From NCBI GenBank assembly GCA_002189035.1, contig NEEC01000009.1, positions 1,488,001 to 1,552,000 of the forward strand: 64,000 bases of DNA. The letters run 5' to 3'. The notes under the pieces were generated by a model. That model saw nothing but the letters and a program-made list of their open reading frames with translations. It was not told where the DNA came from and ran no database searches. The stretch is from Utricularia gibba. Taxonomy: Eukaryota; Streptophyta; Magnoliopsida; Lamiales; Lentibulariaceae. Of this stretch, positions 29,049 to 36,007 are shown piece by piece (within the stretch, counting starts at the first letter, position 1; every line of letters begins with the position of its first letter). The translations under genes were made by a program, and so were the position numbers.

Positions 29049-30793
29049 CTATTCGGATCTAGATGAATCAAGACCCTGGCTTTCATCTCTCTGCGCTTCT
29101 AGAAGTTGATCAGATCCAAGTGCAGATGCAGGCGCCCGCATGAGCTCTGCTCTTGGTGAGCTTGTAGTAACTCCGAAATTTGACACTGTTGTGATGCTTC
29201 CATACGCTGCATTGGCATCTATATCTTCATTAGACTCGTGCACCTCAGCAAAGATTGGCTGCCCAAAAAGCAGAAACTGTGGAGTCCTCTGTTCACAGGG
29301 TTTCTCTTGCACCTTCCTAGAACTTCCGATGCTCAAGTTGCATGATACATTTTCCTTGTCATCCAACGTGGTCTTACTCACAATATCAACATTAGGACAA
29401 GGATGAAGATCAGCGCAGTTACTGGGGAACAACCCCATCTGGAATTTGTTACCATAACCGAGATCTGCAAGCATGGCTTGACCTTGCCTGGCTCCCTGTT
29501 TGCCAGAATGCATGTCATCTTCCGGAACGAACAGTGGATTGTTTGGCACCAACGGCATCCTTGCAAAAGAGGGTATTGGAATATCATGCTCAAATGGGAA
29601 ATCCAAACCAAAGGATGCTCGCAGCTTCTTCCTTTTCTCACAAAAGAGTGACAGAGGGGGAAACTGCACCCCTGATTTGATCTCCACTGACCAGGGGTTC
29701 ACACACTTCACATTCTGCAGACGTTTAGGCTCGTCCCAAGTAACCTACAGAAGCATGATTTAGAATGATCATTGCAAAAAGATTGAAAGAGGCTTAGTTC
29801 AGCTACCTGAAGGGATTTCCATGGCGAATCAGGCCATCTATGCGGGTCCTTGATTTCAAATGAGTTTACAGTTCCAGTAAACCAACTAACTTTAGATGTC
29901 TCATCAGTTTCCAATGCCATCTGGAACGTCATCCCACTACACCATTGAATCCTCATTGCAGCTGCCACAGACGAAGCACTAACACAAAACTCAGATGTGT
30001 TCGAGCGTGGATAGTATTCTACCTCAAATGGTTGGGAGCTAGCAGCCAAGTATGCGGCCTCAAGAACAGACTCAGGCCTCACTTTCCTGTCAGCAGTAAG
30101 GAGTTTACTATTTCTTTCATCAAACGATCCACCAAGACTGAAACTTTTTTTGGCCTTTCGAACTCCGATGAAAAGCTCTCCATTTTCTGCCCTGATGAAA
30201 ACTACGGAATCGCCAGCAATGAGACGCTTTTGGTTCACAAAATTGCTCCACCCTGTTGTCAGCAAGTGTCGCAGTGGCGTCCCACGATGAATGTGCCTAA
30301 ACTTCCAAGTCCCGCCATGCACATCTTTGCAGAAGATATCCTGAACTGGAGGATTAGCACTGTAATCCAGAGGAGGCAAAATTGTTTCAGCCAAGTTTCT
30401 GGGAACTGATAATCCTCCACCATTGTTGGCATCAGATTGTGTCAGTATCTTCTCAGAAGACATGCATTTGGTCATGTCACCACTTTGCATATCATTTGAA
30501 CCAAAATCAATGTTTTTTTCCAATAAGGGATCAAGGCGAATTATTGCATAAATCTCATCGCTTTCAGGGTTCACCAAATATCTTGCTGCGATGATTCTAC
30601 ATGGAATCATAGATGGAATATTTGGAAAACATCCAAAATCTACATCAGTAAGAGTATGTTCACCATGCCCTTGTGGAAAATAAAATACTTGCAAATTCTT
30701 GTGAGGAATCTTTATAATGCTGCCAGCTAAAACATGCCATATATCTCGATCTATATTTGTTTCTCTTCTTTTCATGCCTTCTCCGTTCTCCAT
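29049..30793 (-). CDS. ARF17-like: Auxin response factor, ARF17-type (ARF10/16/17 clade)
   Basis: Auxin-response transcription factor, probably a repressor. There are two coding exons: 30793-29807 (MENGEGMKRRETNIDRDIWH onward) and 29744-29049, separated by a 62-base intron, for a product of about 560 residues. The first exon has FYFPQGHGEHTL, the B3 DNA-binding domain (TQSDANNGGGLSVPR, FRHIHRGTPLRHLLTTGWS, LIAGDSVVF) and most of the ARF domain. The second starts VTWDEPKRLQNVKCVNPW and carries the miR160 site and QFLLFGQPIFAEVHES, matching the ARF17 C-terminus. There is no PB1 domain, as in ARF17. Differences from the clade consensus include Leu for Phe in GGGFSVPR and Leu for the first Arg of TPRRHLL. 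The Arg and Pro positions known to touch DNA in ARF1 are kept. Confidence 0.92.
29485..29505 (-). promoter_or_regulatory. miR160 target site in the ARF mRNA
   Basis: The plus strand reads TGCCTGGCTCCCTGT-TTGCCA across these 21 bases. This equals mature miR160 except at one position (miRNA position 16, T here versus A). The ARF is transcribed from the minus strand, so its mRNA holds the complementary target with a single mismatch outside the seed and cleavage site. It encodes GKQGARQ, the counterpart of the GMQGARQ peptide in ARF10/16/17. Confidence 0.92.
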
Positions 30794-31978: not shown

Positions 31979-33384
31979 CTAGAACCAGGGGTGTCCAGAG
32001 CGAATCAGGTTGGATGTTAACCTGGAAAGATCGCTCAGGAAGCCTTTTTTCAGCTTACTTGGAGATGGGTCTTCACAGGCTGATGGGACTGAGCTTCCCT
32101 TGTAAGCGTTGCAGATGTATGTTATGAAGTTTGTGTAGTCCTGTTGCACAAGACAATGAAATCATCAAAGCTCGATATTGACCCTATCCTGCTCATATGC
32201 AGGCTAACTTTCATTAGCTTCATCAAGGGATCAGCAACTTGATAGCAAGTTTTCAAATTGAGGCTGCTTGCTTCTGAAGGAACATGCATACTTACTTCAT
32301 ACAGTGGTTGCCCGTCTACAACCACCCAAGGCACATATTTATGGGGTGGTTGGAGTGCGTTTGTTTCTGCTGCATATTTGAGTTCAAGCTGCACAGAAAC
32401 GACTCGACTGAACATGTATCTGGTGAATTAATGTGAATCTGAAGGTGATTTGGGTAAGAGGTAGAGAAACAAACCTCTGTTCCTTGCCCACTTTTGTAAC
32501 AATCAGCAACAGAAGATGCATCCAGGCCAAGTTGCTCGAAACATGTCTCCCAGTAGGTGTAGTTGTGGTGATATACGAGGCTTTCCACACAGTAAATAAA
32601 TGGAAAATGCACATTCTGTAGAATTTGACACCAAGCAGTGTCAGCAATGACCTTTTACAGCGAAAGAAAACATCATTATCCAGAAAATGCTAACCACATC
32701 AGGCCAGGCATCAATGGCACAGGCCTCAACAGTATTCAAAAGGCATTCATTTGCTCCATGCTGCCAATAACAAGACATTAATATTCAGTTGAAAGCGAAA
32801 TATGTAGTGCAAACGCAACAAGGAAGAGACACCAAGCGAAATATAACATCCATGATGGTTTGCCTTTTAGAAAGTGACCAAGGAACGTAAATGAAAAGAC
32901 CACAACAAAACAGTGATCGATAAATAGACAAACGAATGAAGTTTGAACACATTTTTGCTTCTACTATTCAAAGAGAAAGTGCAGTTCGGCTAGCTCTCAC
33001 AAGATCCGTGATGGCTGTCAGCAATAAACATTAACTTCCCCTTTGTCCCAGGGCACCAAAATATATAACAAGTTTAAACAGAGCTGACCGCTCACAAAAA
33101 CTAACATAGAGGGTTAACTATAAAAAGACCTGGCACTTGAACTCATGGCTGCCAAGAAGTTTCGCATTGCCCCAGGGCACAAGATTCAGATCAACAACGT
33201 CAATCAACCCATTAGTGAACAACAAAGCTAAAGAATCGACAATAAATCCAGCACTGTAAGGACAAAGGCTTTCATAGTATAAACCAACAGAGACTCTACT
33301 GCATGAAATAGAAGAAACTAGTGATGCCAGAAGCAGCAACTGAAGATTCTTTAGGGAGCGAGAGCAAGCCATAGCAGAAGGCAT
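31979..33384 (-). CDS. GILT-like thiol reductase (proximal first exon plus shared downstream exons)
   Basis: Gamma-interferon-inducible lysosomal thiol reductase family, predicted secreted or vacuolar. Exon 1 (33384-33130) encodes MPSAMACSRSLKNLQLLLLASLVS (signal peptide; alternative ATG at 33372) and VGLYYESLCPYSAGFIVDSL, ending EFKCQ. Exon 2 (32760-32695) reads HGANECLLNTVEACAIDAWPDV. Then come NVHFPFIYCVESLVYHHNYTYWETCFEQLGLD (about 32520-32620), LELKYAAETNALQPPHKYVPWVVVDGQPLYE (about 32300-32395) and a last exon, DYTNFITYICNAYKGSSVPSACE, ending RSGHPWF with the stop at 31979-31981. The active site here is CPYS rather than CPYC, which lacks the resolving cysteine. The family features CQHG-x2-EC-x2-N and the C-terminal cysteines are present. 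Confidence 0.85.
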
Positions 33385-33618
33385 GGAAGTGGGAGTTCCA
33401 AGAATCGAAGATGAAGATATTTGGGAAAAATGGGTTCCAAGAAAACCCCCCAAAAATGCTCACATGTGTATCTTGTTAGCTCATCGTGGCAATTTTAATG
33501 TGTGCCACTAGTTCATATCCCATTGGTTGATTTCCCTAGAGCCAGCCATATCTTCCCAACTAAATCACGGAAAAGCAAGACAAACAGCTATGGACTATGA
33601 AATGAAACAGAGGAGTAC

Positions 33619-33855
33619 CTGACATTTGATGGTGCCGTCGGCAGCGATTTTTGCGTTTCCGTAAGGTAGTAGCTTCAGATCAGTGATTGGTGCGAGCCCG
33701 GAATCAAAGAGCTTGTTGAGGTAATTGGCGATGAAGTTGGAGCAATACGGGCACAGAGTCTCGTAGTAGAGCTCGAGGGTTACTTTGTCGCCGGTTTCTA
33801 CGGCGGCAGAAGAAACGACGATTGAGATAATGAAGAAGGCCCGAAAAACATTCAT
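33619..33855 (-). CDS. GILT-like alternative/distal first exon (CPYC form)
   Basis: An intact first exon with its own ATG (33855) and signal peptide MNVFRAFFIISIVVSSAAVE. It then reads VTLELYYETLCPYCSNFIAN and KLLPYGNAKIAADGTIKCQ, ending at a good CAG/GTAC donor. It is paralogous to the first exon at 33130-33384 but keeps the full CPYC redox motif. No second exon of its own exists in the 234 bases before the proximal first exon. The phase matches the shared exon 2, so it could be a mutually exclusive first exon of the same locus. Otherwise it is a 5' fragment left by partial tandem duplication. Confidence 0.75.
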
Positions 33856-34043
33856 GGCGCAAAAGCTCCACCTGTCCTTTCCTTCTTCACAGTCAGTTAT
33901 ATAGGCAATTTTTTCTACTAATTAAACGCGTTGGAGGCTAGGAATCCACGTAAACCAGAAAAATGTTTCGATGAAGAGAAAGTACAGACAGCTTCAAACA
34001 TAAAACCAGAACAAAAGAATGAAAGCACTTCTGTGGGATCCCT

Positions 34044-36007
34044 TTACACAGCAGAAACCTTGGATTCTTTCTCGGACAGAAGCGGTGTAGTATCTCTTTC
34101 TTTAGTCTGCAAGACAAACTAATGTGAATCAAAATCGCATCTTTTTCCATGTGTGTGGTGTTTGAAGTGTGGTGTATGAAAGTACTTATTCGTACATGAG
34201 CTAAAGATGAAATGTCAACGATCTGCTTCTTCTTTGCCTCGTTGGTGCAAAAATACGAGTACATTCCCATGCCAACAATGGCGATGAGAATCCCCATGAT
34301 GTTTCTTGCAGTGAAGGGATCATGGAGAAGAGTGTATCCAAATGCAAGAACAAGACATGTTTTCAGATGACCCAGAACCTGGTAAGTAACTGGGGAAGTC
34401 TTCCCGATCACTAAGAACGTGCTGAAGTTGACAAACACGGCGATCAAGCATGAAAGTATGATGAATCCCTGAATAAGGAAAACAGGAAAATCTTCATCTT
34501 TGAGTGACAAAGGAGCTCGCAAAGGCTAAAAGAAGGGGCTTTTTACCAAAACAACTGGAGAGTAGGTGAAGCCAAAGACGTTTTGTTTCGTGAGGCATTG
34601 ATCCACAACAGGGCCTGTCAAGAAGAGAATGGCAGCCTGAAATGGGGCTGATTGGTATAGCAGCTGTGTCGAGGAGACGCTGAGTTTCTTCTGTATCGTG
34701 TTGGTTAGCTAAAGCAGGGAAAAGAGCAAACGTAATGAGTGAGTCTAGTTGAGCAAACGACTGGCTTAACCTATAGGAATGATGCTTACGATTTGGCCAA
34801 CACAAGTTGTTATAATCGCAAGAAGGGATAAAACTGTTCCGACGAAGTTTAGCTGAAGATCGGTGACTGAAGCTATCCCAACTCCAAGAAGTAGGACAAA
34901 CAGAGAAAACTTGATCTTCTGGCTGCATCATTACCAGAAAAACAGATATCAGTCGTAAGCATGTTTCTTGAAGCAGAAAAGTAGGCATCTTAGTGACCTG
35001 AATTGTTTATTCAAGAAGAGTGTCTCCAGCAGAACTGTGAAGGGTATAATGGCGAGTTTCGTCATCTGAAAGGGAGAACAAAAACATCAAGAAAGATACA
35101 GTTGCTGCATCCAGCTCTCTAAGGAACAAAAAGTTATATTAGATCACGAACAAGGAAAATGATACAGCACTAGCAATCCGAAGTGCACCTTATCCCAACA
35201 CTTCTACTATTGGGATCTGGTATGAGAGTGCACCTGATAGAATCCGATGGAGTTAAATCCCAAGCTGAGGTTGAGAAGTCCTATTGAAACACCATTCAGA
35301 ATACCAAAAAGGAAGACTGTCCTCCTTTCGATCGGTTTATTTTCAAAGAAGTTCAAGCGCAACGCCACATGAAGGCTGCAGTACGTCACCATCAAGTGCC
35401 AACTAGTGAGCGTCGTTGCTGAGAGTCATAGTGCAAATTCCAATCAGCAAGCAGAGTAGCATACATGAGCATTTTCATTTCATACAGAATCAAAATCAAC
35501 AACCAGGTGTGATCAACTCTATCCAATAGTTAATTAATTTCTTCGACTGAAGTCTCTGATATTTCTCACTGAAAAATCAAAGATTTCTCCAACATACAAA
35601 TGATCCTCTAAAACAACAATTCCATAGAAGAAGATGATTCAAGATACTAAGGAACAGGTATGAAATAAAACTCTTATTATGAATACCAGCAGAATGACGG
35701 CTGATAATGAAACTAAATGAAGCGACCAGCGCGAAATCAGGTGAAAAGAAGCAAGCACTGTGTCTATACGGTTTCGAATTGGACGTTCTACGAACACGTT
35801 GTGAATGAAATGAGCAAGATTCATTACTTTTAAGACAAAATCAATGCTTTAGGAAGAAGACAGGAAAAGGATCAATAACGATTTACCAAACTGAAAGCCG
35901 AGATTACTCATGAGTGCTTTGTTGCAGATGACTATGGATACAGAAGACGCCACCGAAAGAAACAATGCCCCAACAACTCCCAACTGGAATCCCGACGTCT
36001 CTCCCAT
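34044..36007 (-). CDS. UXT1-like: UDP-xylose transporter (UXT1-like nucleotide-sugar transporter)
   Basis: Golgi/ER antiporter of the NST-KT/TPT family bringing UDP-xylose into the lumen for wall polysaccharide synthesis. The start ATG is at 36007 (MGETSGFQLGVVGALFLSVASSVSIVICNKALMSNLGFQF). Later exons give MVTYCSLHVALRLNFFENKPIERRTVFLFGILNGVSIGLLNLSLGFNSIGFYQ near 35240-35390. Further exons give QLLYQSAPFQAAILFLTGPVVD (about 34620) and GFIILSCLIAVFVNFSTFLVIGKTSPVTYQVLGHLKTCLVLAFGYTLLHDPFTARN (about 34300-34470). The last exon reads TKERDTTPLLSEKESKVSAV, with the stop at 34044-34046. About ten hydrophobic segments are present. By memory it is nearly collinear with Arabidopsis UXT1 (At2g28315). 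Confidence 0.92.

Follow-up and report, generated by a model that had tools for sequence, protein, structure and literature searches.

Why does a locus for GILT, an enzyme that cuts disulfides, carry two first exons in the Utricularia gibba genome but only one set of exons to follow them, and could both first exons be in use? In the window analyzed here (the whole stretch of 64,000 nucleotides), two intact GILT first exons, a distal one (D) and a proximal one (P), stand in tandem upstream of a single set of exons 2-5, all on the minus strand. Exon D (33855-33619, minus strand) begins with an ATG and a signal-like hydrophobic N-terminus, continues into a CPYC redox half, is open for 79 codons, and ends in KCQ followed by a phase-0 donor, CAG/GTACTC. 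Exon P (33384-33130, minus strand) is similarly built, with its own ATG, signal-like hydrophobic N-terminus and CPYS redox half, 85 open codons, and a final KCQ followed by the phase-0 donor CAG/GTCTTT. The spacer between them (33385-33618, minus strand) comprises the start of the D intron and the presumed promoter and leader of P; a short inverted repeat, GTGGCA...TGCCAC, occurs within it at 33486-33508, upstream of the P ATG.

Beyond P lie the 369-base intron 1 of the P form (32761-33129, minus strand) and the shared exons, referred to here as the tail, which are all on the minus strand, all in phase 0, and each of a length divisible by three: exon 2 (32760-32695), with the acceptor TTATTGGCAG, which starts with HGANEC and completes the CQHG motif; exons 3 (32615-32475) and 4 (32388-32296), homologous to exons 3 and 4 of the C496 gene described below; and exon 5 (32140-31979), which carries the stop codon. 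At the 3' end of exon 2 there are two possible in-frame donors, GTG/GTTAGC, used here, and GAT/GTGGTT, three bases earlier. D plus tail would be 232 amino acids long and P plus tail 238, both free of internal stops: as read from the sequence, either first exon spliced to the tail is a complete GILT. The range given in the initial annotation, 33130-33855, covers both first exons and leaves the tail outside, at 32760-31979, where the text of that annotation also has it; its description of one downstream exon set in matching phase is confirmed. The neighbors share one orientation, in the order transporter-like gene, D, P with its tail, and ARF-like gene. The upstream neighbor (approximately 36.0-34.06 kb, stop at 34063) is nucleotide-sugar-transporter-like, and the downstream one (29708-30793) is a B3-domain ARF-like gene.

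Are both first exons really parts of GILT genes? Against the Pfam GILT model (PF03227; cut-off 22.4 bits), D plus tail scores 107.6 bits and P plus tail 103.6 bits, each over 103 residues and both above the cut-off. The resemblance of the first exons themselves is not due to chance, since D alone reaches 46.7 bits (E 4.4e-12) and P alone 42.3 bits (E 1e-10); P also matches human GILT 6nwx (E 3.8e-4). These matches and the open frames bear out the earlier proposal of two paralogous first exons, each with its own ATG, signal peptide-like start, redox half and phase-0 donor after KCQ.

The hallmarks of plant GILT/OSH1 proteins are a signal peptide, a CXXC redox site, a CQHGX2EC motif and ten conserved cysteines (PMC7017176). 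D plus tail shares all of these with PtOSH1 of poplar and At1g07080, At4g12870-12960 and At5g01580 of Arabidopsis: CPYC supplies the CXXC active site, all ten conserved GILT cysteines are present, and the motif CQHGX2ECX2NX4C is found as CQHGANECLLNTVEAC, which arises across the junction of exons 1 and 2 with either first exon. The locus differs from these plant relatives in that two competing first exons share one tail, and in that the P form has CPYS, with the second active-site cysteine lost. The P form accordingly lacks the CXXC site; it has nine of the ten conserved cysteines, the resolving cysteine being the one missing, and two others in its signal-like N-terminus. CPYS is a CXXS variant, of a kind known in insect GILTs. 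In mosGILT, a natural CXXS GILT of mosquito, serine likewise replaces the second active-site cysteine (PMC6060088, PMC10775533); the recombinant mosquito protein showed no reductase activity, and a CXXS mutant of mouse GILT retains reduced activity (PMC6060088). By analogy with the impaired mouse mutant and the inactive mosquito protein, the P form may act weakly, serve for trapping, or have no catalytic role. One difference is that mosGILT is the product of a separate gene, whereas the CXXS protein here would be one of two forms from a single locus. Searching the literature for plant GILTs with CPYS, and for printed plant GILT peptides, yielded nothing usable.

Where might a first exon without a tail have come from? 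Protein and Pfam searches of the assembly (100.09 Mb in 516 contigs) found three GILT first exons: D, P and one at C496:166623-166874. The last belongs to the only other complete GILT gene found (within C496:163500-171500), which has five exons and a CPYC site and is flanked by PRA1-like and profilin-like genes, surroundings that we take to resemble the Arabidopsis OSH1 neighborhood. The same searches found two intact GILT tails, those of P and of the C496 gene, and one decayed fragment on C1 (C1:7652000-7653600, minus strand), a 5'-truncated copy in which parts of exons 3-5 are left, exons 1 and 2 are gone, a frameshift has occurred and splice sites have been lost. This fragment was considered as the missing tail of D and rejected: its DNA is 73-79% identical to the C496 gene, of which it is a decayed copy. 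No relatives were found in viral contigs or prokaryote genomes.

D and P are 44-47% identical in protein, compared with 44% for D and the C496 first exon and 51% for P and C496; in a 54-codon core of the three, silent sites are saturated (pS 0.79-0.95) and pN is 0.33-0.38. The divergence of D from P is thus about that between separate GILT genes, which suggests that D once headed a separate GILT paralogue of considerable age. The idea that part of P was duplicated recently was rejected on these same identities and saturated silent sites, and the alternative raised in the initial annotation, a partial tandem duplication leaving a dead 5' fragment, does not fit two exons as diverged as separate genes. 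Some presumed likenesses may be read as leads only: ITDLKLLPYGNA in D to the Arabidopsis At4g128xx-129xx group, and VSVGLYYESLCPY in P and HKYVPWVVVDGQPLYEDY in the tail to At1g07080.

If D once headed a complete gene, is anything left of its other exons? No match for exons 2-5 belonging to D was found in the 100-Mb assembly, which has stretches reading N where a missing match is not proof of absence, and no GILT exon 2-5 remnant rose above shuffled controls in the spacer, in intron 1, or in the 5' or 3' flanks. A 24-base repeat between intron 1 and P, also considered, is within chance expectation. The missing exons were probably lost by deletion, to which this compact genome is readily prone, although deletion as the cause is inferred. 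Losses of this kind have parallels: the upstream transporter gene has three more copies (on C213, C321 and C328, with identities of 86, 77 and 75%), and no GILT was found in the neighborhoods searched around them, a pattern that agrees with duplication followed by gene loss. Given these copies without GILT and the truncated copy on C1, whole and partial GILT loss appears to be common in this genome.

Taken together, the similar identities among the three first exons with their saturated silent sites, the three first exons set against two intact tails, the absence of an exon 2-5 remnant from spacer, intron 1 and flanks, and the loss or truncation of GILT elsewhere in the genome argue that D represents the promoter and exon 1 of an old tandem GILT paralogue that lost exons 2-5, an origin that we regard as likely. 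One point against it is that an ancient, UGT1-style duplication of the first exon alone would equally give an old, tail-less D. The locus would then never have held a full second gene, and would have had a variable first exon since deep in the angiosperms; this would account both for the missing trace of a D tail and for the good preservation of D. We consider it distinctly improbable: the divergence of D equals that among whole GILT genes, and the presumed likenesses, of D to the At4g128xx-129xx group and of P and the tail to At1g07080, would place D in a lineage with full tails. Less probable still is an assembly artefact in which a D tail has been collapsed into that of P. The contig spans 3.45 Mb, with D present once, and identical tails would be odd behind heads that are approximately 50% different in DNA.

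Is D itself still fit for use? It has no stop and no frameshift, retains its donor and all GILT hallmarks, and scores higher than P against the Pfam model. A TATATAA box at 33897-33903 (minus strand), 48 bases upstream of its ATG, is a candidate core promoter; TATAWAW occurs at -90 to -25 in 1.0% of first-order-resampled upstream sequences, and no TATA box was seen ahead of P. This undecayed state (open frame, Pfam score above that of P, donor, TATA box at -48), and the fact that D plus tail would form a complete GILT with ten cysteines, lead us to favor, at a little better than even confidence, the explanation that D is the head of an old paralogue which lost its own tail and was captured by its neighbor, P with exons 2-5.

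A substantial competing possibility, to which we give somewhat less than an even chance, is that D is a dead leftover: the tail-less head of a paralogue, too young to have decayed and without useful product, whose short transcript, if there is one, ends early or is destroyed. (Read through unspliced, D meets a stop seven codons after KCQ.) Codon models of the three sequences, which are saturated, speak partly for this: a D branch that is neutral throughout comes out worse by approximately 2 log units, and a neutral tail of up to approximately 0.4 substitutions per codon on D costs less than 0.5 log units. Since such a tail costs almost nothing, a recently dead D is compatible with the data, and D could have been silenced recently, dead but young; truncated GILT copies do occur elsewhere in the genome. 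At 73-79% identity to the gene it derives from, however, the C1 copy has already shifted frame and lost splice sites, whereas D keeps its reading frame, donor, TATA box and a Pfam score above that of P.

How might capture by the neighbor have come about, if it did? The proposed sequence of events starts with an old GILT paralogue standing in tandem upstream of, and in the same direction as, the gene that is now P plus exons 2-5. Loss of its exons 2-5 would have put the D promoter and phase-0 donor directly before that gene, so that a transcript begun at the D promoter would run through D and its donor, across all of the P region, and on into the tail. Since a first exon such as P has no need of an acceptor, the natural next acceptor for such a transcript would be that of exon 2: the transcript would skip P, joining the donor at 33619 to exon 2 at 32760 and encoding a CPYC GILT with the full ten cysteines. 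The CPYS form would come from the promoter of P itself. That some transcripts do join D to exon 2 seems to us nearly, though not quite, an even bet. Two AGs inside P (33348 and 33339, minus strand) would keep the reading frame if joined to the D donor and could compete, giving a double-headed protein with two redox halves.

A hypothetical switch between dithiol and monothiol forms by alternative promoters would be physically possible, since D combines a TATA box with an intact donor and P requires no acceptor as a first exon. Is such a switch maintained by selection, with two promoters giving the CPYC dithiol form (from D) and the CPYS monothiol form (from P) in different tissues or under different conditions, as in a UGT1-like locus? 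The matching anatomy and phase of the two exons, the TATA box of D and the freedom of P from any acceptor would all suit it, as would the reduced or altered activity of CXXS GILTs (PMC6060088, PMC10775533). We nevertheless consider a selected, functional switch between the D and P forms unlikely: D transcripts might splice to the in-frame AGs within P and so encode a double-headed protein in frame, and a CPYC form is already supplied by the C496 gene. The same doubt attaches to the fuller account, in which one locus makes two GILT forms by promoter choice, CPYC through an exon captured from a dead paralogue and CPYS natively, a UGT1-like redox switch thus having been made by gene loss as the genome shrank.

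The closest parallel in arrangement is the vertebrate UGT1 cluster, in which tandem first exons, each encoding a signal peptide and an N-terminal half, are in phase with one shared exon set (PMC1885805). D and P present the same features: at least two first exons, homologous and coding, follow one another in tandem, and their donors are in phase with one shared exon set. First-exon choice of the UGT1 kind would be physically ready here, because a transcript from the D promoter would next meet the exon 2 acceptor. The differences are that there are only two first exons, very old relative to each other, and that the probable origin is by loss of a tail, not by exon duplication. In plants, mutually exclusive (type I) first exons have been described in rice and Arabidopsis, and alternative first exons of some type occur in approximately 5.9% of expressed rice genes (PMC2174465). 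If both are used, the unusual feature of this locus is that the two first exons encode homologous catalytic halves, in an arrangement that probably arose from the loss of one gene's tail.

What the locus means depends on the splicing of D. If D is not joined to the tail, it is what remains of a gene, a relic still young, in a genome that is shrinking. If it is spliced to the shared exons, the locus would show clearly, on a small scale, how variable first exons can arise: when a tail is lost from one of two tandem genes, the neighbor adopts the promoter and head left behind. One plant would then also offer a comparison of a single tail with either two cysteines or one in the active site.
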